From Planctomycetota bacterium (GTDB taxonomy: Bacteria > Planctomycetota > UBA1135 > GCA-002748355), in NCBI GenBank assembly GCA_024278315.1, contig JAJRTL010000043.1, forward strand, positions 1-46,656: 46,656 nt of DNA, given 5' to 3'. The position numbers and the translations under genes are program-made. The notes beneath the pieces are model-generated. The model had not been told where the DNA came from. It made no database searches and saw only the letters and a program-made list of their open reading frames with translations. Shown one piece after another: positions 22,879-32,744 of this stretch; position 1 is the first letter of the stretch, and the number at the start of each line of letters is the position of its first letter.

Positions 22879-23165
22879 ATAGCAAAGCCGGGATCTGCAG
22901 GATGCAGGTCTGCGGTGATTGGCAGCAAGACCCTCCCCCCGTCTCTGGCGCTCCCGATGAGCTCCGTGGGAATCGATTTTCCCAGCCAGGGCATGTCGTC
23001 CACTCGTCGTGGACGAGATCCGGGTTGCCCACCACCCTGGTGTGGCGGTCCAGTCAGACCGATCTCCGGCCCCCCTCGCGAAAGAGGGCTGTCGGGGAAG
23101 ACTCCCAGGTTTCGAATCCGGGAAGGCGTGCACACCCGCCAGTGGTCTTGCGAAGCGGTAGGAAA

Positions 23166-26100
23166 ATGGTGTGGGAGCAGGAGCTCCAGGAGAAAGAGCA
23201 CGTGACGCATGTCAACGTCAAGGGGAAGATCGCAGGACGCGAACTCATCCTCGAAACCGGGAACTGGGCGAAGCAGTCCGATGGTTCCATCATCGCCACC
23301 TATGGTGGCACCAAAGTCATGGCCATGGCCAACAGGGCCAAAGCACGAGAAGGCCTCGACTTCTTTCCGCTCACCGTGGACTATCGGGAGCGGACCTATG
23401 CTGCGGGCAAATACCCCGGCGGTTTCTTCAAGCGTGAGGCGAGGCCCACCAACAAGGAAACCCTCACCTGCCGTCTGATCGATCGGCCGATCCGTCCCTT
23501 GTTTCCGGATGGATACAAGGAGGAGGTCCAGGTCCTGATCACGGTGATCCAGGTCGACCAAGAGGTCGATCCCGACATCGTGGGCATGGTCGCGGGCTTT
23601 GCCGCGCTGCGCACGAGTTCGATCCCCTTCACGGAGAATCTCGGTGCCGTTCGGGTCGCCTACATCGACGACAAGATCGTCGTGAACCCCTCGATCGAGG
23701 AGACCGAGTCCGAGCAGAACAAGCTCAACTTCATCATGGCGGCGACGAAGGATGCCGTGCAGATGGTCGAGGCTGGTGCCGAGCAGGTCTCCGAAGAAGT
23801 CATCCTCGATGTCCTCGAGCAGGGCCAGAAGGTCTGTGGTGACATTGGTGCGCTGATCGAGAAGCTCGCCAAGAAGGTCAAGAAGGCCAAGCTCGAGTTC
23901 CAGGCTCCTGAGGTTCGTAGCGAGATCGAGACGAAGGTGGAGCGCAAGTTCTACAAGAAGCTCTTTGCCGCCGTGACGTCCCAGGGCAACAAGCATGAAC
24001 GTGGCGATGCCATCAATGAGGTGGCCACGGCGATCAAGGAGTGGGGCGAGATCGAGTTCGCAGGCTCCGAGACGGTCGAGGCCGACACTAAGTACCTCAA
24101 GAACTTCATCTACGAGCTCAAGAAGAGAGCCGAGCGCGAGACCATCCTGGATGGGACCCGCACCGACGGCCGCGGGCCTGCGGATATCCGTCCGATCTCC
24201 TGCGAGATCGGTCCCCTGAGTCGTTTGCACGGTTCGGCCATCTTCACTCGCGGTGAGACACAGGCTCTGGTGACCACAACGCTGGGAACGGTAGACGATG
24301 AGCAGATCGTCGAAGGTCTGGGTGATGGGATCCGCAAGAAGTTCTACCTGCACTACAACTTCCCACCCTTCTGCGTGGGCGAGGTCCGTCCTCAGCGTGG
24401 TCCCGGTCGCCGTGAAATCGGACATGGCATGCTGGCCGAGCGGGCCCTGGTCTCGGTGCTCCCGGATCCCTCGGTCTTCCCCTACACGATCCGCCTCGTG
24501 AGCGAGATCCTCGAGTCCAATGGATCCAGCTCCATGGCCTCGGTCTGTGGTGGTTGTCTGGCCCTCATGGACGCAGGAGTCCCGATCCAGCAGCCCGTCG
24601 CGGGCATTGCCATGGGGCTCATCAAGGAAGGCCGCAAGACCGCCATCCTGTCCGACATCCTCGGTAGCGAGGATCACTGTGGCGACATGGACTTCAAGGT
24701 GACCGGCACGCAGTTCGGCATCACGGCCCTGCAGATGGACATCAAGTGCTCGGGGCTCACCCGTGCCATCATGAAGAAGGCGCTCGAGCAGGCCAAGCAA
24801 GGCCGCATCCACATCCTGAAGGAGATGCTCAAGGCCATCGACAAGCCGCGGACCGCGATCAGCAAGAACGCGCCGCGCCTCGAGCGGTTGAAGATCAACC
24901 CCGAGAAGATCGGCCTCATCATCGGGCCGGGTGGAAAGAACATCCGGGCCTTGCAGGAGGAGACCAAGACCAAGCTCAACGTCGATGATGACGGCACGAT
25001 CACGATTGCTGGAGCGATCAGCGAACTCGTGGACGAGGCCGTGCGAAGGATCGAGGCCATGACGGCCGAGGTCGAGATCGGCAAGACCTACCAAGGTCGC
25101 GTCGTTTCGATCAAGGAGTTTGGTGCCTTCATCGAGGTCCTCCCGGGTCAGGAAGGACTTTGTCACGTCTCCGAGCTCTCCAACGACTTCGTGAGGTCTG
25201 TCAATGAAGTCATGGACATTGGGTACATCGTCGCCGTCAAGGTCCTGGACGTAGACGCCTTGGGCAAGATCAAGCTGTCCCGCAAGGTCCTGCTGGAGGG
25301 CGGAGATGCGGAGGGGCAAGAGGGTGGCCAGGAAAGGCCTCGGCGTTCCTCCCGGCGCGAGGAGGGAGATGCTCCCGCTCGCGGTCGAGACCGGGATCGC
25401 GGTCGAGATCGGGATCGTAGTCGAGACCGGGATCGGTCGGAGCGACCCGATGAGGACCACCCCCGCCGCTCGCGAGGTGGAGATGACGATGAGGCTCCTC
25501 GCCGAGGTCGCGCCAGTCGTGATGCGGAGGGTGAGGCACCTCGACGGAGTCGGGATGCGCGAACCGACGAGGATCGTCCTCGCAGAGGTGGACGCAGTCG
25601 AGACGACGAGGATCGCCCCCGCCGTGGACGCGGGAGGGACGAGGAAGATCGCCCCCGCCGCAGTCATCGCGATGATGAGGATCGTCCGCGCCGCAGCAGC
25701 AGCCGAGACGACGAGGATCGCCCCCGCCGTGGTCGCGGGAGGGACGAGGAAGATCGTCCGCGCCGCAGCAGCAGCCGAGACGACGAGGATCGCCCCCGCC
25801 GTGGACGCGGGAGGGACGAGGAAGATCGCCCGCGCCGCAGCAGCAGCAAGCGTGACGATGAGGATCGCCCCCGCCGCAGCAGCAACCGCGACGACGAGGA
25901 TCGCCCGCGTCGTCGCAGCAACCGCGACGACGAGGATCGTCCGCGTCGTCGCAGTAACCGCGACGACGAGGATCGTCCGCGTCGGGGTGCCCGGGGTAGC
26001 GAGGAGGGCGAAGAGCGCCCTTCCCGTGGTCGTGGCAGGGACCGGGATCGCGATGACGAGTGGGAATCCGAGGGGCGTGGCAGGACGGACCCAAAAGACG

Positions 26101-26240
26101 ATCGACCAGACCTCGATGCAGATGTAGATGAGATTCCCCGGGGACGCGGGCGCTCATCAGGCCGAGGTCGCTCCTCGTCCGATCGTGGCGGGCGTCATTC
26201 TTCCGGCTCACGGTCGAGTGGAGGGCGAACCAGGCGATAG
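23166..26240 (+). CDS. pnp: Polynucleotide phosphorylase with a ~310-residue charged repeat tail
   Basis: 1024 residues from the ATG at 23166 (TAGGA just upstream); the track's longer ORF runs into the rpsO spacer. Residues 1-570 are the two RNase PH-like domains: FFPLTVDYRERTYAAGK, LHYNFPPFCVGE, GRREIGHGMLAERAL and EDHCGDMDFKVTGT with the catalytic Asp residues. KH domain with GPGG at about 575-630, then S1 (GRVVSIKEFGAFIEVLPG) to about 708. PNPase degrades RNA 3' to 5' with phosphate and can add tails. Usual length is about 700, so roughly 310 extra residues follow. They are Arg/Asp/Glu/Ser repeats and end in a GR/SR-rich segment. The enzyme looks intact. Confidence 0.97.
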   Translation: MVWEQELQEKEHVTHVNVKGKIAGRELILETGNWAKQSDGSIIATYGGTKVMAMANRAKAREGLDFFPLTVDYRERTYAAGKYPGGFFKREARPTNKETLTCRLIDRPIRPLFPDGYKEEVQVLITVIQVDQEVDPDIVGMVAGFAALRTSSIPFTENLGAVRVAYIDDKIVVNPSIEETESEQNKLNFIMAATKDAVQMVEAGAEQVSEEVILDVLEQGQKVCGDIGALIEKLAKKVKKAKLEFQAPEVRSEIETKVERKFYKKLFAAVTSQGNKHERGDAINEVATAIKEWGEIEFAGSETVEADTKYLKNFIYELKKRAERETILDGTRTDGRGPADIRPISCEIGPLSRLHGSAIFTRGETQALVTTTLGTVDDEQIVEGLGDGIRKKFYLHYNFPPFCVGEVRPQRGPGRREIGHGMLAERALVSVLPDPSVFPYTIRLVSEILESNGSSSMASVCGGCLALMDAGVPIQQPVAGIAMGLIKEGRKTAILSDILGSEDHCGDMDFKVTGTQFGITALQMDIKCSGLTRAIMKKALEQAKQGRIHILKEMLKAIDKPRTAISKNAPRLERLKINPEKIGLIIGPGGKNIRALQEETKTKLNVDDDGTITIAGAISELVDEAVRRIEAMTAEVEIGKTYQGRVVSIKEFGAFIEVLPGQEGLCHVSELSNDFVRSVNEVMDIGYIVAVKVLDVDALGKIKLSRKVLLEGGDAEGQEGGQERPRRSSRREEGDAPARGRDRDRGRDRDRSRDRDRSERPDEDHPRRSRGGDDDEAPRRGRASRDAEGEAPRRSRDARTDEDRPRRGGRSRDDEDRPRRGRGRDEEDRPRRSHRDDEDRPRRSSSRDDEDRPRRGRGRDEEDRPRRSSSRDDEDRPRRGRGRDEEDRPRRSSSKRDDEDRPRRSSNRDDEDRPRRRSNRDDEDRPRRRSNRDDEDRPRRGARGSEEGEERPSRGRGRDRDRDDEWESEGRGRTDPKDDRPDLDADVDEIPRGRGRSSGRGRSSSDRGGRHSSGSRSSGGRTRR
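25560..25996 (+). repeat. In-frame repeat encoding RDDEDRPRR-type units in the pnp tail
   Basis: About 12 imperfect copies of a 36-39 base unit encode R-D-(D/E)-E-D-R-P-R-R followed by 2-4 variable Gly/Ser/Arg residues. Three variants alternate (…RRGRG, …RRSSS, …RRRSN), including a higher-order GRG/SSS pair repeated three times. All other frames stay open across it because of the low-complexity codons, which produces several false ORFs. Copy number is likely to vary between strains. Confidence 0.85.
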
Positions 26241-26513
26241 CCTGGGATTCCATCCCCAACAGTGAGCTGCCCGGGCTCTCACCCGGCCGTCACCCAGACC
26301 GATCCCGTATCGGACAAGGCTGCGGCGGGGTGCGAGCCCGGTTCGCGTACCTCGCATCTGCCCTCGATTACAGCGCTCTGGGTTGAGACCGGGAAGAGCC
26401 CATGCCTTGGGCCAGTGGCGGCCATTTTCTCAAGTCCTCCGTCGTACATGCCGACAGAGGGTGTGGCTCCGACGTGGGGTCCCGGCTCATGGCGGCAGGG
26501 ACGCGTACGGATG

Positions 26514-26570
26514 CTGCCACAGGCCCTCAGGGTCGTGGCAGTCGGGTCAGGCCCGACTTGGTTCTTTATT
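26514..26570 (+). promoter_or_regulatory. Tandem hairpins with terminator-like end in the cold-shock gene leader
   Basis: CTGCCAC (26514-26520) pairs with GTGGCAG (26535-26541), with an inner CCC-TCA-GGG. Immediately after, AGTCGGG (26540-26546) pairs with CCCGACT (26552-26558), followed by TGGTTCTTTATT. The second hairpin has the form of an intrinsic terminator and ends at the ribosome site GGAG of the cold-shock gene, so no promoter fits between them. CTGCC can also pair with an upstream GGCAG near 26493, giving an alternative fold. The whole 340-base stretch from 26241 to 26581 has no convincing gene. Confidence 0.5.
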
Positions 26571-26581
26571 GGAGTAGATTG

Positions 26582-26848
26582 ATGAACGTAACCGGCACCG
26601 TCAAGTGGTTCGACAACCGCAAGGGCTTTGGGTTTCTCCTGACCGATGGGATCGAAGAGGACATCTTCGTTCACTACAGCCAGGTCCAGGGTGAGGGCTT
26701 CAAGTGTCTTCATGATGGCGAGAAGGTCGATTTCGACCTGGTGAGGGGAGACAAGGGATATCACGCTCATCAGGTGACCAAGCACGTGCCCTGTGCTGGT
26801 GGCGCGCACAGTGAGGCTCTGGTCGAGCCCACTCTCAGCAGAGTCTGA
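26582..26848 (+). CDS. Cold-shock domain protein (CspA family)
   Basis: 88 residues starting at ATG 26582 with GGAG eight bases upstream; the track's 148-residue ORF includes the leader. Residues 1-68 are a complete cold-shock domain with RNP1 KGFGFL and RNP2 DIFVHY, plus VKWFDNRKG at the start. About 20 extra C-terminal residues (VPCAGGAHSEALVEPTL) are unusual for the family. It binds single-stranded RNA or DNA and melts secondary structure. The long leader fits the known pattern of cold-regulated csp mRNAs. Being next to pnp and rpsO, it belongs to an RNA-metabolism neighbourhood. Confidence 0.95.
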   Translation: MNVTGTVKWFDNRKGFGFLLTDGIEEDIFVHYSQVQGEGFKCLHDGEKVDFDLVRGDKGYHAHQVTKHVPCAGGAHSEALVEPTLSRV

Positions 26849-26861
26849 GACTGCTCCTTAC

Positions 26862-26886
26862 CGGAAGGGTTCCAAGAGCCCTTCCG
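26862..26886 (+). terminator. Hairpin after the cold-shock gene, terminator-like
   Basis: CGGAAGGG pairs perfectly with CCCTTCCG around TTCCAAGAG, starting 13 bases after the stop codon. There is no T tract after it, so it may end or protect the mRNA rather than act as a classical intrinsic terminator. Confidence 0.45.
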
Positions 26887-26926
26887 AACGGATGTTCCAG
26901 CACACCGGGAAGCCCATACGCAGCGC

Positions 26927-26955
26927 GGCTCAATTCTATTGGGTGGAATTGAGCC
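26927..26955. promoter_or_regulatory. Perfect 10-bp inverted repeat upstream of the sigma-54 activator gene
   Basis: GGCTCAATTC and GAATTGAGCC form a perfect 10-bp inverted repeat with a 9-base centre (TATTGGGTG), ending 41 bases before the start codon. Arms and spacing suit a dimeric repressor/activator site, or a hairpin if transcribed. No U tract follows. Confidence 0.45.
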
Positions 26956-26996
26956 AAAGTCCTGCCCATACTGCGCTTTCTGCCTAGAATGTCTCG

Positions 26997-29900
26997 ATGC
27001 TGAGTTTGTGCAGAAAGAGACAGAGCCGATTTCCTGTTGGCGCAATAGCCGCAAATACCCCGGTTTCTCATGCGCCACTCCGCCGATTCCTCGCCAAGCT
27101 CGGGGTTCTGCCCTGGGTTCTCCCCTGGATCCTGGTCCTCTGTTTCGGGCTTTCTAGCAGTCGCCTGAAGGCACAGGGAGAGAGCCGTCAGGCCTCTCAG
27201 GTCAAGGTCCAAGTCCCGTACGCGACTCGTTTCATACGCATCGACGGTGTGGGACAAGAATACGAGCATGCGGCGATTCTCCATCTGAATCGCCGCAGCC
27301 AGCTGGTCTCGACAGCGGAGATTGCCTGGAAGGGGGATCGGGATGCCTCGGCGGAGATCCGCATACTGTACGACGAGGGGCATCTGTATCTCTTCGCCCG
27401 TGTCAAGGACGACGAGTTCCTGGCCCCTGGGGGAGAGGACGTCTGGAATTCAGGAGATGTCCTGGAGCTGTTCTTCAATACGGACCCCCTGGATGATGAA
27501 CAGGGCAGTTCCCGGTTCAACGAGGACGACTTCCAGATCTTGTTGCCCTTGCATGGACCGGACTGGCCTTGGGTGGCTGTGGCAGCCAAGAAGCAGGAGG
27601 GTGGCGAAAGGACCCGTCTTCAGAGTATCGAGAGTGGCATCGGCGGGATTGAAACTGCCCGCAGGGTCGTTGGGGACGAGGTTCACCTCGAAGCCAGGAT
27701 CCCCTTGCATATCCTGCCAGGGATTCGAAAGGGGCAGTCTGAACTGGGGTTCAACCTGGCGCTGGGAGACCGGGATCAGGGAGGGCAGATCTATAACTAT
27801 CTGGTTTGGGCGGGGGGGCTTCCTCCGTTCAACGATACCAGGCACTTCGGTTCTCTCCATTTTCGTGGACCGCCCATTCTGGTGGCCCCTGATTCGTCTG
27901 GGCTCGGAATGGGCGCTTTCCTGCTCACCGGCCTGGTCTATCTCCTTCCCTGTCTTCTGCTCTTCCTCCTGCTCTGGATGGCCCGCCGTGTGGACCAAGG
28001 ACCCTTGGCCTCCCGTCCGCGACTCCGGCTGGGGCTGGGCATCAGTTCGGGAGTTCTCTTTCTTCTGGCGATCTACATTCCGGACGTCATGGGCGACTTG
28101 GATGAGTTCAACCGGAGGGTGAGGGCCGAGGAGATTGCAGATACCGTACAGGCCGCTCTTCCTGAGATCGAGGAGGGCTTGTTGAGGAGGTTCCCGGGTC
28201 CCAGTCGGGACGAGCCTTTCATCGAGTTTCTGTCAGGCGCATCCGTTCGTCGGCGTCTCGAACGGGACTACTATCCGTTGCTCCCTGGACAGAAGGCCAA
28301 GCTGGGATGGCAGGCGAAGGCCTACGAGGACGAGGGGCTCTCGATCTATGAGTATGGTGTGCCTCTTGGAACGAATGGTGAGGAGATCCGATTCCAGGAT
28401 CTCGAGGAGGGGGATCGCATCGCGATTCTCGTGTCCCGGGAGACCTCAGACTGGATCAAGGCGACACCGAGACTCGAGATCTACGAGCAGGTGCAGGGGG
28501 GGACCGTCAGGCGCATCGTGAATGCCGACCGGAAGCTCTCCTCGCTCACGGATGGCAGGGTTGGTTTCTACGGAATCCTCGATATGAAAGCGGGTTCCTC
28601 CATCCTGCAGATCCGACCCGCAGAAGAGGACGGGCTTCGCCTGGAGGGGATCAGCAGGTTGCCAGCCGGTGAAGCGAAGCAGGCTTCGAAGCCCCTGGCC
28701 ATCGGGAGCGTCTCCCTGGCTGGCGTCCCCACGAGCTTGCGCGGTCCCTATCCTTGGAGGATCGGCGCAGAGATCCTGCCCGGCCGGAAGTTGGAGCTCG
28801 AGTTGCCTCGGTCGGACCTCGATGAGGTTTGGTTCTTCCTCGAAGCCAAGGAGGGACCTGTTTTTCTTGAAACGCCGGACAAGGCGAGTGTCTGTAGGCT
28901 TGAATTCTCTTCGAAGCGCAGCGAGAGAGGCTCCCAACGGGAGGTCCGGGAGCTACGTCATCAGGCCGAGATCTTCGCCAGCAAAGCCGTCGACAACGAA
29001 GAGCTTGCGCGATTGGAGAAGGGAGCTGGCACAGAGATCGGGTATGAGTGGGAGGATCGCAAGGGGGGCCGGAGGTTGACGCCGGTCATTCGTATCGATC
29101 TGAATCGCGCGATCCCCTACGGTCGGGTGACCATCTCCAACATTGGGCCCTACGCGCTGCGGCTTCGTTCGGTCGTGGGGGCGAGAGTCACGCAGGACCC
29201 ATCCTCGCCCATCGATCTGTCGAGCCTGATCAAGGGGAGAAACCGGACAGAAGTGCAGCTTTCGCCGAAGCTCAAATCGAAGCTGGCGGATGCCGAGTTC
29301 ACCATCTTTCGTGGAGGAAGTCTCCGGGCCACTTCGTCGGCATTGGGGCTGTACGTTATGCGTACGCGTCTTTCTGAGGACATCACGCGTGGTCTGCAAG
29401 GGGGGGCTGTCTACGGGGACGGATTGATCAGTATGGGGCCAGGTGCCCGCGATCTCCTCTTCAGGTTGCATGGCGAGGGCTGGGAGCAAGCCGTCCTGGC
29501 CATTTCCCTGTTCGATTACGATCGGCTTGCATTTGCGACGTTCACCCGTTTCCTTCGATTGATCTTCATGGGCTTGAGTCTGCCCTGGTTCCTGGTGTTC
29601 CTCCTGCACGTCTTGGCTCCGGTTGGAAGCATCCGATGGCAATTGGCCGGAGTCGTGGCTTTCGGAACCCTGGTTCCCCTCTTCTTCCTGTCGATCTTCC
29701 TCGTCAGCTTTCTGGAGCGAAGCCAACGCGACGCAGATGGGAGGAGAATGCAAGAGGAGTTCGAACTCGTCCTTGCCAACATGGAGAAGGAGCAGGCCCG
29801 AATGGCGGAAGGCGCGACCAAGAACGTCCAGGCCTTCATGACCGAGATTGCAAGGCTACCGGAGCTGGACCCTGAAAAACGAGAGGAGCTGTATCGCAGC

Positions 29901-32744
29901 ACGGAACGGGCGTTGAAGTTGCTTCGGCCCGATGACTGGTCTCGCGATAGTTTCGTCACGCTTCGTTTTCCTGATCCGGAGTCTGCCGACCGCATGCTCA
30001 CTCTCCGGGACGGAGAAGGGACAGGTCGGTTCGCAACGGTCGCATTGAGTGAGGGGAGTGGAATCTACTCCGCTTTCGGGAAGGTCTTCTTGGCCGTCCG
30101 TGCCGAGCTCCCCATGAAGGATGCGAAGGGGAAGCTGCGATTCTCCTGGGGCCGCGTCTTGGATCCCACTCTCTTGAGCGAACTCTCTTCGCAGGGAATC
30201 CTGGGGCTCTATGACCTCTCGGGATACCCCATCGCCCTCGGGGCTACGTCACAGTGGTCCCATCGATTGCTGGAATGGAAGGAGAGGGAACAGAGGCCAG
30301 ACGCGATCGAAGAGAAGCAGGCGCTGAGTCTGGAACTCGACGAAAGCACCGTCCCTGTGCGAGTCTCGCTGACCAAAGGGGGGCCGGAAAGGCGTGCCGT
30401 GATGGCCATGTTGCGAGGTTCTTCCAATAACGGACTAGCCATCCTGGCGAGCTTCGAAGAGCGGAAGCCTGCATCGTTGCTCTTTTTCTGGGGTCCCTTG
30501 GCGATCAAGAACTTCTTCATCGTGGTCGTCGGTCTGCTCTCGGTGTTCGCCATCTACCTTGTTTGGATCGTGACTGACCGCATCGCAGTCCCCATCGAAC
30601 GTCTGGAAGAGCATGCCAACCGCATCAGTCAGGGTGATCTTGAGATCCAAGTGATCGACACGGAAGGCGCCGGGGAGGTGTCCAGCCTCAATCGCGCTTT
30701 TGGTGAGATGGCTGAGGAACTGAGGGTCCGGATCCGCCAACAAGAGTTGAGGAATGCTGCCGTTGCGAGGCTCTCGTCCCGGTTGGATCTGGATGCCGTC
30801 GGTGATGAGGCCGTCGCAATCCTCCGTGAGGCTTGCGGTTGTCAATCCGTGGTTCTCCTGCTCCAGGACCGCGAGCGCAGACGCGTTCTTGTATTCAGCA
30901 AAGATGAAGAAAGGGAGGATGTCGATTCGCACGGAGAATTCCAGGATCTGGTTTTCGAGGCCGAAGGCTCGTTCTGCTTGCGTCTTCCCGTGAAGGCCCT
31001 GGAAGAGGAGCTTCGGATTTTCAGCCAGGAGGGCGCCTGTCTGGTCTTCCCGCTTCGCATCCAGGGGCGTAGATGGGGGTCTGTCCTGCTTCAGTTCCAG
31101 GATCCGAACGACATCGACCTGGATCTGGAGTTCCTCGAGGGCTTGCTGGGGCAGATCGTGTCCACGATGGAGACGGCTCGCCTGTACCGGCTCGCGATCG
31201 AAGATGCGCCGACCGGCCTCTATGTGGCGCGATACTTCGAGAGGCAGGTGGCCCAGGAGTTGGACAGGGTCCGGCGAAGTGGAGGCCTTCTCTCGTGGCT
31301 GCGGTTCGCTTTTCCAGGGCCGGATCGCCTCCGCAGGCATTGGGGTGACGCTGGCTTCGACCAGGTCCTGGGGAGGATCGGGGACGAGCTTCTCCATGAG
31401 ATGCCCAGTCACGGCATCGCAGGTCGCGCTGGCCTGGCTAGCTTCGACCTCCTGCTGCCAGAAACCGATCCTGAGCAGGCGCGAAAGGTGGGGCACAGGA
31501 TGAGGGGGAGCCTGATGGGGCTGTTCGAACGCCAGGGCCTGAGTCTAGAGATCCAGGTAGCCATGGTGGCTGCGCCTGTCGACGGAAGCTCGACGGCCAT
31601 GCTCAAGGATGAGCTTGCCCGACGTCTCAGGCAGCTGGATTCTGGAGTAAACAGGGGGCGGAATACGTCGATCAAGGTCGAACGTCGTGGAGGTGCGGTC
31701 TTTGCCTCGGTGGCGATGCACAAGCTCCTCGAGGATTTGGATCGAGTGGCGGCAACGGATCTCCCCCTCCTGATCCAGGGAGAAACAGGAACGGGCAAGG
31801 AGGTCCTGGTAGATCTCTGCCACGAGGAGAGTCGCAGGTCCAAAGGGCCCCTGGTCAAGCTCAACTGTGCAGCCATCCCCGCGAGCCTCATGGAGTCGAC
31901 CCTGTTCGGGCATGAGAAGGGCGCTTTCACGGGCGCGGATGAGCGAAAGCGGGGAGTCTTCGAGCAGGCACATGGGGGCACGCTGTTCCTGGATGAGATC
32001 GGGGACCTGCCCCTCGAGCTCCAGGCCAAGCTGCTTCGGGTCCTGCAAGCCAAGGAGGTCCAGCGCTTGGGTGGTGAGACCCCCATCCAGGTGGATGTGC
32101 GGGTCTTGGCGGCGACTCACCGGGACCTGGAGAAGTTGATCCAGGAGGAGGGGTTCCGCGAGGATCTGTTCTATCGGCTGCAGGGCTTTCGGCTCCAGGT
32201 GCCCCCCCTTCGGGACCGGCGGGAGGAGATTCCTTATCTGGTGGAGTCTCTGCGCCAGGAGTTCGGGGATGCTGCCAAGGAGTTTTCTGCGGAGGCCTTG
32301 GATCTCCTCTATCGGAATGCCTGGCCAGGCAATATCCGGGAGCTCAGCAACGTGGTTCAGCGGGCGCTGGTCCTGGCGCGTGGGGCCTTCGTGGAGGCCG
32401 AGGATCTGGACCTCGCCGAGCAACAGGGGGACTCGACTCTTCTCAACGTCTCGGGTCTGCCACCGGAGCTGGATGACGAAGAAGAGGGATTCTTGATTCC
32501 GCAGCCGCCGGAGACGCTCCGCATCGAGGATAGATGGGCGCTCCTCGAGGGATACCTGGAGGCTCGCCAGGCGGTAGATGCCTTCATCACGCCTCGCGTC
32601 TACCGTGCCCTGGTCAAGGTCAGTCGTCGAACTGCCAGTCGCGATTTGAGCCAGTGGCTTGAAGAGGGGCAGCTGGAGAGCAGTGGGCGCAAGCGGAGCC
32701 TGCAATACCGTCTGATGAGTCGCGAGAATACGTCGCAACCGTAG
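26997..32744 (+). CDS. Giant membrane-bound sigma-54 activator with CBM9-like, HAMP, GAF, GGDEF-like and AAA+ domains
   Basis: 1915 residues. An N-terminal hydrophobic segment (VLPWVLPWILVLCFGL) is followed by a CBM9-like beta-sandwich (~74-290: LYDEGHLYLFARVKDDEF, VWNSGDVLELFF). Two membrane helices at ~303-365, a long extracytoplasmic region, more helices at ~843-910, another extracytoplasmic stretch and a last helix at ~1172-1195 follow. Then HAMP (PIERLEEHANRISQGDLEI), GAF (~1250-1395), and a GGDEF-like domain (~1400-1550) whose signature is replaced by GLASF. The AAA+ domain (~1565-1800) has GETGTGKE, GAFTGA and GGTLFLDEIGDLP. The C-terminus (ITPRVYRALVKVSRRTASRDL) looks like a winged helix, not the usual Fis-type HTH. 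It should couple an envelope signal directly to sigma-54 transcription. Confidence 0.88.
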   Translation: MLSLCRKRQSRFPVGAIAANTPVSHAPLRRFLAKLGVLPWVLPWILVLCFGLSSSRLKAQGESRQASQVKVQVPYATRFIRIDGVGQEYEHAAILHLNRRSQLVSTAEIAWKGDRDASAEIRILYDEGHLYLFARVKDDEFLAPGGEDVWNSGDVLELFFNTDPLDDEQGSSRFNEDDFQILLPLHGPDWPWVAVAAKKQEGGERTRLQSIESGIGGIETARRVVGDEVHLEARIPLHILPGIRKGQSELGFNLALGDRDQGGQIYNYLVWAGGLPPFNDTRHFGSLHFRGPPILVAPDSSGLGMGAFLLTGLVYLLPCLLLFLLLWMARRVDQGPLASRPRLRLGLGISSGVLFLLAIYIPDVMGDLDEFNRRVRAEEIADTVQAALPEIEEGLLRRFPGPSRDEPFIEFLSGASVRRRLERDYYPLLPGQKAKLGWQAKAYEDEGLSIYEYGVPLGTNGEEIRFQDLEEGDRIAILVSRETSDWIKATPRLEIYEQVQGGTVRRIVNADRKLSSLTDGRVGFYGILDMKAGSSILQIRPAEEDGLRLEGISRLPAGEAKQASKPLAIGSVSLAGVPTSLRGPYPWRIGAEILPGRKLELELPRSDLDEVWFFLEAKEGPVFLETPDKASVCRLEFSSKRSERGSQREVRELRHQAEIFASKAVDNEELARLEKGAGTEIGYEWEDRKGGRRLTPVIRIDLNRAIPYGRVTISNIGPYALRLRSVVGARVTQDPSSPIDLSSLIKGRNRTEVQLSPKLKSKLADAEFTIFRGGSLRATSSALGLYVMRTRLSEDITRGLQGGAVYGDGLISMGPGARDLLFRLHGEGWEQAVLAISLFDYDRLAFATFTRFLRLIFMGLSLPWFLVFLLHVLAPVGSIRWQLAGVVAFGTLVPLFFLSIFLVSFLERSQRDADGRRMQEEFELVLANMEKEQARMAEGATKNVQAFMTEIARLPELDPEKREELYRSTERALKLLRPDDWSRDSFVTLRFPDPESADRMLTLRDGEGTGRFATVALSEGSGIYSAFGKVFLAVRAELPMKDAKGKLRFSWGRVLDPTLLSELSSQGILGLYDLSGYPIALGATSQWSHRLLEWKEREQRPDAIEEKQALSLELDESTVPVRVSLTKGGPERRAVMAMLRGSSNNGLAILASFEERKPASLLFFWGPLAIKNFFIVVVGLLSVFAIYLVWIVTDRIAVPIERLEEHANRISQGDLEIQVIDTEGAGEVSSLNRAFGEMAEELRVRIRQQELRNAAVARLSSRLDLDAVGDEAVAILREACGCQSVVLLLQDRERRRVLVFSKDEEREDVDSHGEFQDLVFEAEGSFCLRLPVKALEEELRIFSQEGACLVFPLRIQGRRWGSVLLQFQDPNDIDLDLEFLEGLLGQIVSTMETARLYRLAIEDAPTGLYVARYFERQVAQELDRVRRSGGLLSWLRFAFPGPDRLRRHWGDAGFDQVLGRIGDELLHEMPSHGIAGRAGLASFDLLLPETDPEQARKVGHRMRGSLMGLFERQGLSLEIQVAMVAAPVDGSSTAMLKDELARRLRQLDSGVNRGRNTSIKVERRGGAVFASVAMHKLLEDLDRVAATDLPLLIQGETGTGKEVLVDLCHEESRRSKGPLVKLNCAAIPASLMESTLFGHEKGAFTGADERKRGVFEQAHGGTLFLDEIGDLPLELQAKLLRVLQAKEVQRLGGETPIQVDVRVLAATHRDLEKLIQEEGFREDLFYRLQGFRLQVPPLRDRREEIPYLVESLRQEFGDAAKEFSAEALDLLYRNAWPGNIRELSNVVQRALVLARGAFVEAEDLDLAEQQGDSTLLNVSGLPPELDDEEEGFLIPQPPETLRIEDRWALLEGYLEARQAVDAFITPRVYRALVKVSRRTASRDLSQWLEEGQLESSGRKRSLQYRLMSRENTSQP

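Follow-up and report, generated by a model that had tools for sequence, protein, structure and literature searches.

In a 46,656-nt stretch of DNA (the window), one of the 518 contigs of a genome that was assembled from a metagenome (85% complete) and belongs to an uncultured Planctomycetota bacterium, a GC-rich hairpin, a U-rich motif and the Shine-Dalgarno (SD) sequence follow one another in register directly upstream of csp, which encodes a cold-shock protein. The motif, GGYTCTTT, is conserved within the family of this genome, and its retention in relatives, together with its likeness to a sequence bound by Csp, suggests that the protein may control its own mRNA. We propose that a small regulatory unit occupies the final 45 nt of the csp leader, in which the hairpin is stacked on a pyrimidine motif (UGGUUCUUU) followed by the SD and the start codon. 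It is quite possible, if short of probable, that Csp binds this motif next to the ribosome landing site and thereby adjusts translation of the csp mRNA, with the hairpin presenting the motif in register. More tentatively, hairpin, GGYUCUUU and SD together might constitute a lineage-specific autogenous operator, located at a conserved pnp-csp locus, with which the single detected Csp of a Planctomycetota family would sense, on the mRNA that encodes it, either cold or how much Csp is present.

The csp gene and its leader

The csp product belongs to the cold-shock protein family, with PF00313 matched at 83.3 bits (cut-off 27; E 1.1e-23), and it retains KGFGF and FVH of the RNP1/RNP2 motifs. B. 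subtilis CspB is among its closest solved relatives; the csp relatives nearest to it carry the label Planctomycetota. The features of the region are collected in Table 1.

Table 1. Features of the pnp-csp region in the window and the motif region in the related genomes L019-L025
Feature	Position	Strand	Description
pnp (polynucleotide phosphorylase)	22902..26240	+	RNase_PH, KH and S1 domains; long repetitive Arg/Asp-rich tail
pnp-csp intergenic region	26241..26581	+	341 nt; holds the csp leader
Second hairpin, CTGCCAC/GTGGCAG	26514..26541	+	Arms 26514-26520 and 26535-26541; overlaps the first hairpin by 2 nt (26540-26541); no conservation seen
First hairpin, AGTCGGG-TCAGG-CCCGACT	26540..26558	+	Arms 26540-26546 and 26552-26558, loop TCAGG; 7 Watson-Crick pairs, -11.8 kcal/mol folded; abuts the motif; same register in L019 and L020
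U-rich motif TGGTTCTTT(ATT)	26559..26570	+	Proposed Csp-binding site; family-conserved as GGYTCTTT
Shine-Dalgarno GGAG	26571..26574	+	7 nt before the ATG (26582)
csp	26582..26848	+	Encodes a cold-shock domain protein of 88 aa; no other CSD match found in the genome
Motif region, L019/L020			TGGTTCTTTTCG
Motif region, L024			CGGTTCTTTCC
Motif region, L022			TGGCTCTTTTTTT
Motif region, L023			TGGCTCTTTTCTTTT
Motif region, L021			TGGTTCTGTG
Motif region, L025			TGATTTCTTC

The initial annotation had described the AGTCGGG/CCCGACT stem with a T-rich run reaching the SD, and had argued that no promoter can lie after it, so that it must sit within a long leader. All of this holds. Stem, tail and SD are contiguous, and nothing can start after the hairpin. 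A search of 25400-27400 gave no sigma70-like promoter, and the only TANNNT match in the intergenic region (at 26575) is too near the ATG. In one sister genus (L019 and L020), a csp leader of ~200 nt is held in common and is strongly conserved up to the ATG. That leader begins at a promoter-like TTGGGS-N17/18-TAAAGT, which in L019 lies behind a strong pnp terminator, and canonical terminators are present in the pnp-csp gap of L019, L022 and L023, so that in these relatives csp is probably transcribed from a promoter of its own, with a long leader. The window csp may be cotranscribed with pnp or have a non-consensus promoter of its own. An upstream ORF (26262-26582) that ends in TGATG over the csp ATG was taken as chance, because the relatives' sequences have no such overlap.

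The hairpin before csp is a real RNA hairpin. It is the sole Watson-Crick stem of at least 7 bp with a loop of 3-8 nt in the intergenic region; under criteria chosen after the feature had been seen, such a stem occurred anywhere in 16% of dinucleotide shuffles, in 1.0% it ended no more than 20 nt from the SD, and in 0.02% the 14 nt after it included 8 T or more. Taken over its full length, the leader is only mildly more structured than its shuffles (z -1.7), 6 of 100 of which fold equally well.

A conserved motif adjoins the ribosome-binding site

We compared eight genomes of the family (that of the window and L019-L025), which represent six genera and all contain csp. GGYTCTTT is placed 14-25 nt before the csp ATG and is exact in six of the eight genomes (four of the six genera), being degenerate in L021 and L025; TGGTTCTTT or a variant of it stands next to the SD in every family member, the window reading TGGTTCTTTATT over the whole tail. 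The part of the tail that is kept between genera is the motif GGYUCUUU, where the initial annotation had read only a T-rich run. An unbiased k-mer search using one leader per genus recovered TGGTTCTTT at 1 mismatch in five of six genera, whereas 200 shuffled sets reached at most three. Across genera, the interval from -200 to -40 holds no second motif conserved beyond chance, the one exception being a 26-nt similarity that L025 shares with L019/L020, and GGYTCTTT is thereby singled out. The similarity itself reads CCGATGAA..TCCC.TC.GACGGTGT (L019 2815-2840, L025 about 519-544; 0 of 200 shuffles); its window counterpart is weak (11/16 at about 26450-26465).

Within the class, GGYTCTTT precedes the csp start in 6 of 154 genomes, all six belonging to the family, and it is absent in five of five class genomes outside the family that have the same csp signature. 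Elsewhere in the family genomes the pattern of motif, SD and ATG has 29 scattered matches, most of them away from any recognisable gene start, compared with 17 for a control pattern. The motif is therefore, to judge from these comparisons, csp-specific and, as far as tested, family-specific; a wider regulon carrying GGYTCTTT was rejected, since the remaining matches lie scattered and mostly away from recognisable gene starts. Among plasmid records, matches are confined to the leader end and the csp coding region (69-76% identity).

Conservation of the hairpin is less complete. A stem of 7-8 bp ending exactly at the motif is found in the window, L019 and L020, that is, in two genera, and the L019 and L020 stems differ by one compensatory A-U/G-C pair. 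L021 has a longer-range stem ahead of the motif, and in the other four of the eight genomes (L022, L023, L024 and L025) no short-loop stem of at least 5 bp was found at the motif. With a stem that abuts the motif in some genomes and is missing in half of them, the hairpin is, in this comparison, a partly conserved accessory and the motif is the core.

Csp as the candidate ligand, and the alternatives

The leader carries a conserved candidate Csp site, GGYTCTTT, as an autogenous Csp-binding leader would. We infer Csp as the ligand, an effect of its binding on translation, and the sign of that effect. Feedback repression is slightly favoured because the site would lie within the usual 30S footprint; the other possible sign is activation in the cold, of which E. 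coli cspA is an example. The UUCUUU of the motif is similar both to the consensus d(GTCTTTG/C) of B. subtilis CspB and to GUCUUUA, the RNA of the co-crystal (PMC7825780). This likeness is weak evidence for a specific ligand, because cold-shock proteins bind pyrimidine-rich RNA loosely; moreover, the 5' G of the consensus is U in the window and the conserved GG before the motif core falls outside the consensus. Also against a Csp site are the degenerate motifs of L021 and L025 and the four genomes without the hairpin, and in folding models the window motif is not unusually open (z 0.4 to 1.3). There is precedent for the proposed action in E. coli CspA, which acts on its own mRNA (PMC9947658), and the affinity of a Thermotoga maritima Csp for U7 is far higher at low temperature (PMC7704496).

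The main rival of Csp autoregulation is a translation enhancer, in which the U-rich stretch would be a standby or ribosomal protein S1 site for strong csp translation, the hairpin would only keep the stretch open, and Csp would play no regulatory part. Typical S1 sites are U-rich stretches just upstream of the SD, which is where the motif lies, and csp genes are often highly expressed; the T content at -40 to -8 is 34%, against a mean of 17% at crude ORF starts in the window. A conserved GG and a fixed 8-mer are, however, more specific than S1 needs, and in the family genomes the motif is specific to csp. We regard the enhancer as unlikely, if still worth serious thought, and S1 as less likely than Csp to be the ligand. 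A transcription attenuator, one of the readings offered initially, is possible but weak, and we consider it improbable. Here the hairpin and U-rich tail would be a weak intrinsic terminator, with read-through into csp set by Csp or by temperature. As in such terminators, a hairpin with a GC-rich stem precedes a U-rich tract, a consensus scan scores the feature as terminator-like, and Csp belongs to a known antiterminator family: in the accounts of Bae et al. 2000 given in PMC11648934 and PMC9765468, E. coli CspA, CspC and CspE antiterminate, and B. subtilis CspB and CspD change read-through at terminators (PMC8307031). The window tail, however, has no uninterrupted U-run directly after the stem (TGGTTCTTT) and instead starts with UGG and runs straight into the SD. 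Its conserved GG and its poor tail score (3.1-3.7, compared with 4.4-4.9 for the pnp-side terminators of relatives) both weaken the attenuator reading, and four of the eight genomes have the motif without a compact stem.

We think it very improbable that the leader switches with temperature in the manner of E. coli cspA, through the alternative pairing of two hairpins that the initial annotation had envisaged. Overlapping hairpins with alternative partners do exist as letters, and the partner of CTGCC shifts with temperature in the folding model. The second hairpin is present, although it overlaps the first rather than abutting it, and the upstream GGCAG proposed as the other partner of CTGCC is found at 26494; the folding ensemble, however, leaves GGCAG unused, the competing partner lying at about 26415-26419. 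Predicted exposure of the SD and AUG falls in the cold instead of rising, and the cost of opening the ribosome site does not exceed that of shuffles. The thermosensor reading is weakened by this folding behaviour, the ribosome site being neither opened in the cold nor unusually closed. The relatives' leaders showed nothing that corresponds to the second hairpin, and Rfam returned nothing relevant for the leader, whether at the gathering threshold or with E allowed up to 5. The other initial suggestion, a translation-blocking fold, fails on the same energies, which are ordinary in all but L024. Least probable of all, in our judgement, is that GGYUCUUU is a seed site for a small RNA or another base-pairing partner: a fixed 8-mer beside the SD and a hairpin would fit such a target, but the partner RNA has no known candidate, and base pairing within the leader is inconsistent between genomes. 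A role for the motif as an anti-SD arm was rejected, the pairing being weak and likewise inconsistent.

Relation to known csp leaders

Self-regulation of csp and structured csp leaders are already known, and the element itself matches no Rfam family. The E. coli cspA leader combines a thermosensor with CspA acting on its own mRNA (PMC9947658). Like it, the window has a long structured csp leader, and its Csp plausibly acts close to the ribosome site of the mRNA that encodes it; unlike it, the window shares none of the sequence, its ribosome site is not predicted to open in the cold, and a compact motif plus hairpin stands in place of a rearrangement of the whole leader. The E. coli cold box was not found near the window csp. 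In S. aureus, a U-rich leader site and the processing of a long hairpin by RNase III are reportedly part of cspA control; the auto-regulation itself is the subject of Caballero et al. 2018 (cited in PMC7237705). The window would resemble this case in autoregulation and in a U-rich leader site, the window's part being our proposal; its hairpin, unlike the long one of S. aureus, is short and lies directly at the SD. The leaders of B. subtilis cspB and cspC carry cold-shock boxes, and point mutations in or near the box raise cspC expression (PMC8307031). Conserved short boxes in csp 5' UTRs are thus common to both, a likeness in kind with box sequences apart, and the window comes from a different phylum.

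In the literature searched we found no paper on a Planctomycetota csp leader and no description of a lineage-specific operator made of hairpin, GGYUCUUU and SD. What is known of csp control comes mainly from E. coli, B. subtilis and S. aureus. If the proposal is true, an element this compact and conserved, at the ribosome site of a Planctomycetota csp, would provide a short, testable RNA for Csp self-regulation, and one that adjoins pnp, another RNA-handling gene.

The pnp-csp neighbourhood

Upstream of csp, pnp is found in seven of the eight family genomes; in the eighth, L025, the locus is not long enough for the pnp core to be seen. The same arrangement, with pnp upstream on the same strand, was observed in the window, L019-L024 and eight loci outside the family (L029, L031, L035, L037, L038, L040, L042 and L044), mostly labelled Planctomycetota, with gaps across loci of 83 to 1025 nt. 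By gene order, pnp and csp are a conserved pair of RNA-handling genes.

The true pnp start is probably internal to its ORF. At the C-terminal end (about 25300-26240), the ORF encodes a long, low-complexity tail of repeated DDEDRPRR-type units, and L019 has a similar charged tail after the conserved pnp core. Just past the pnp stop, at 26271-26341, lies a large imperfect hairpin with 33-nt arms, 76% complementary and without a U-run, which is possibly the 3' end of the pnp mRNA. Downstream of csp, a 1915-aa ORF (26997-32744) has an unusual architecture, with CBM9-like, HAMP, GAF, GGDEF-like and sigma-54 activator domains in one protein.
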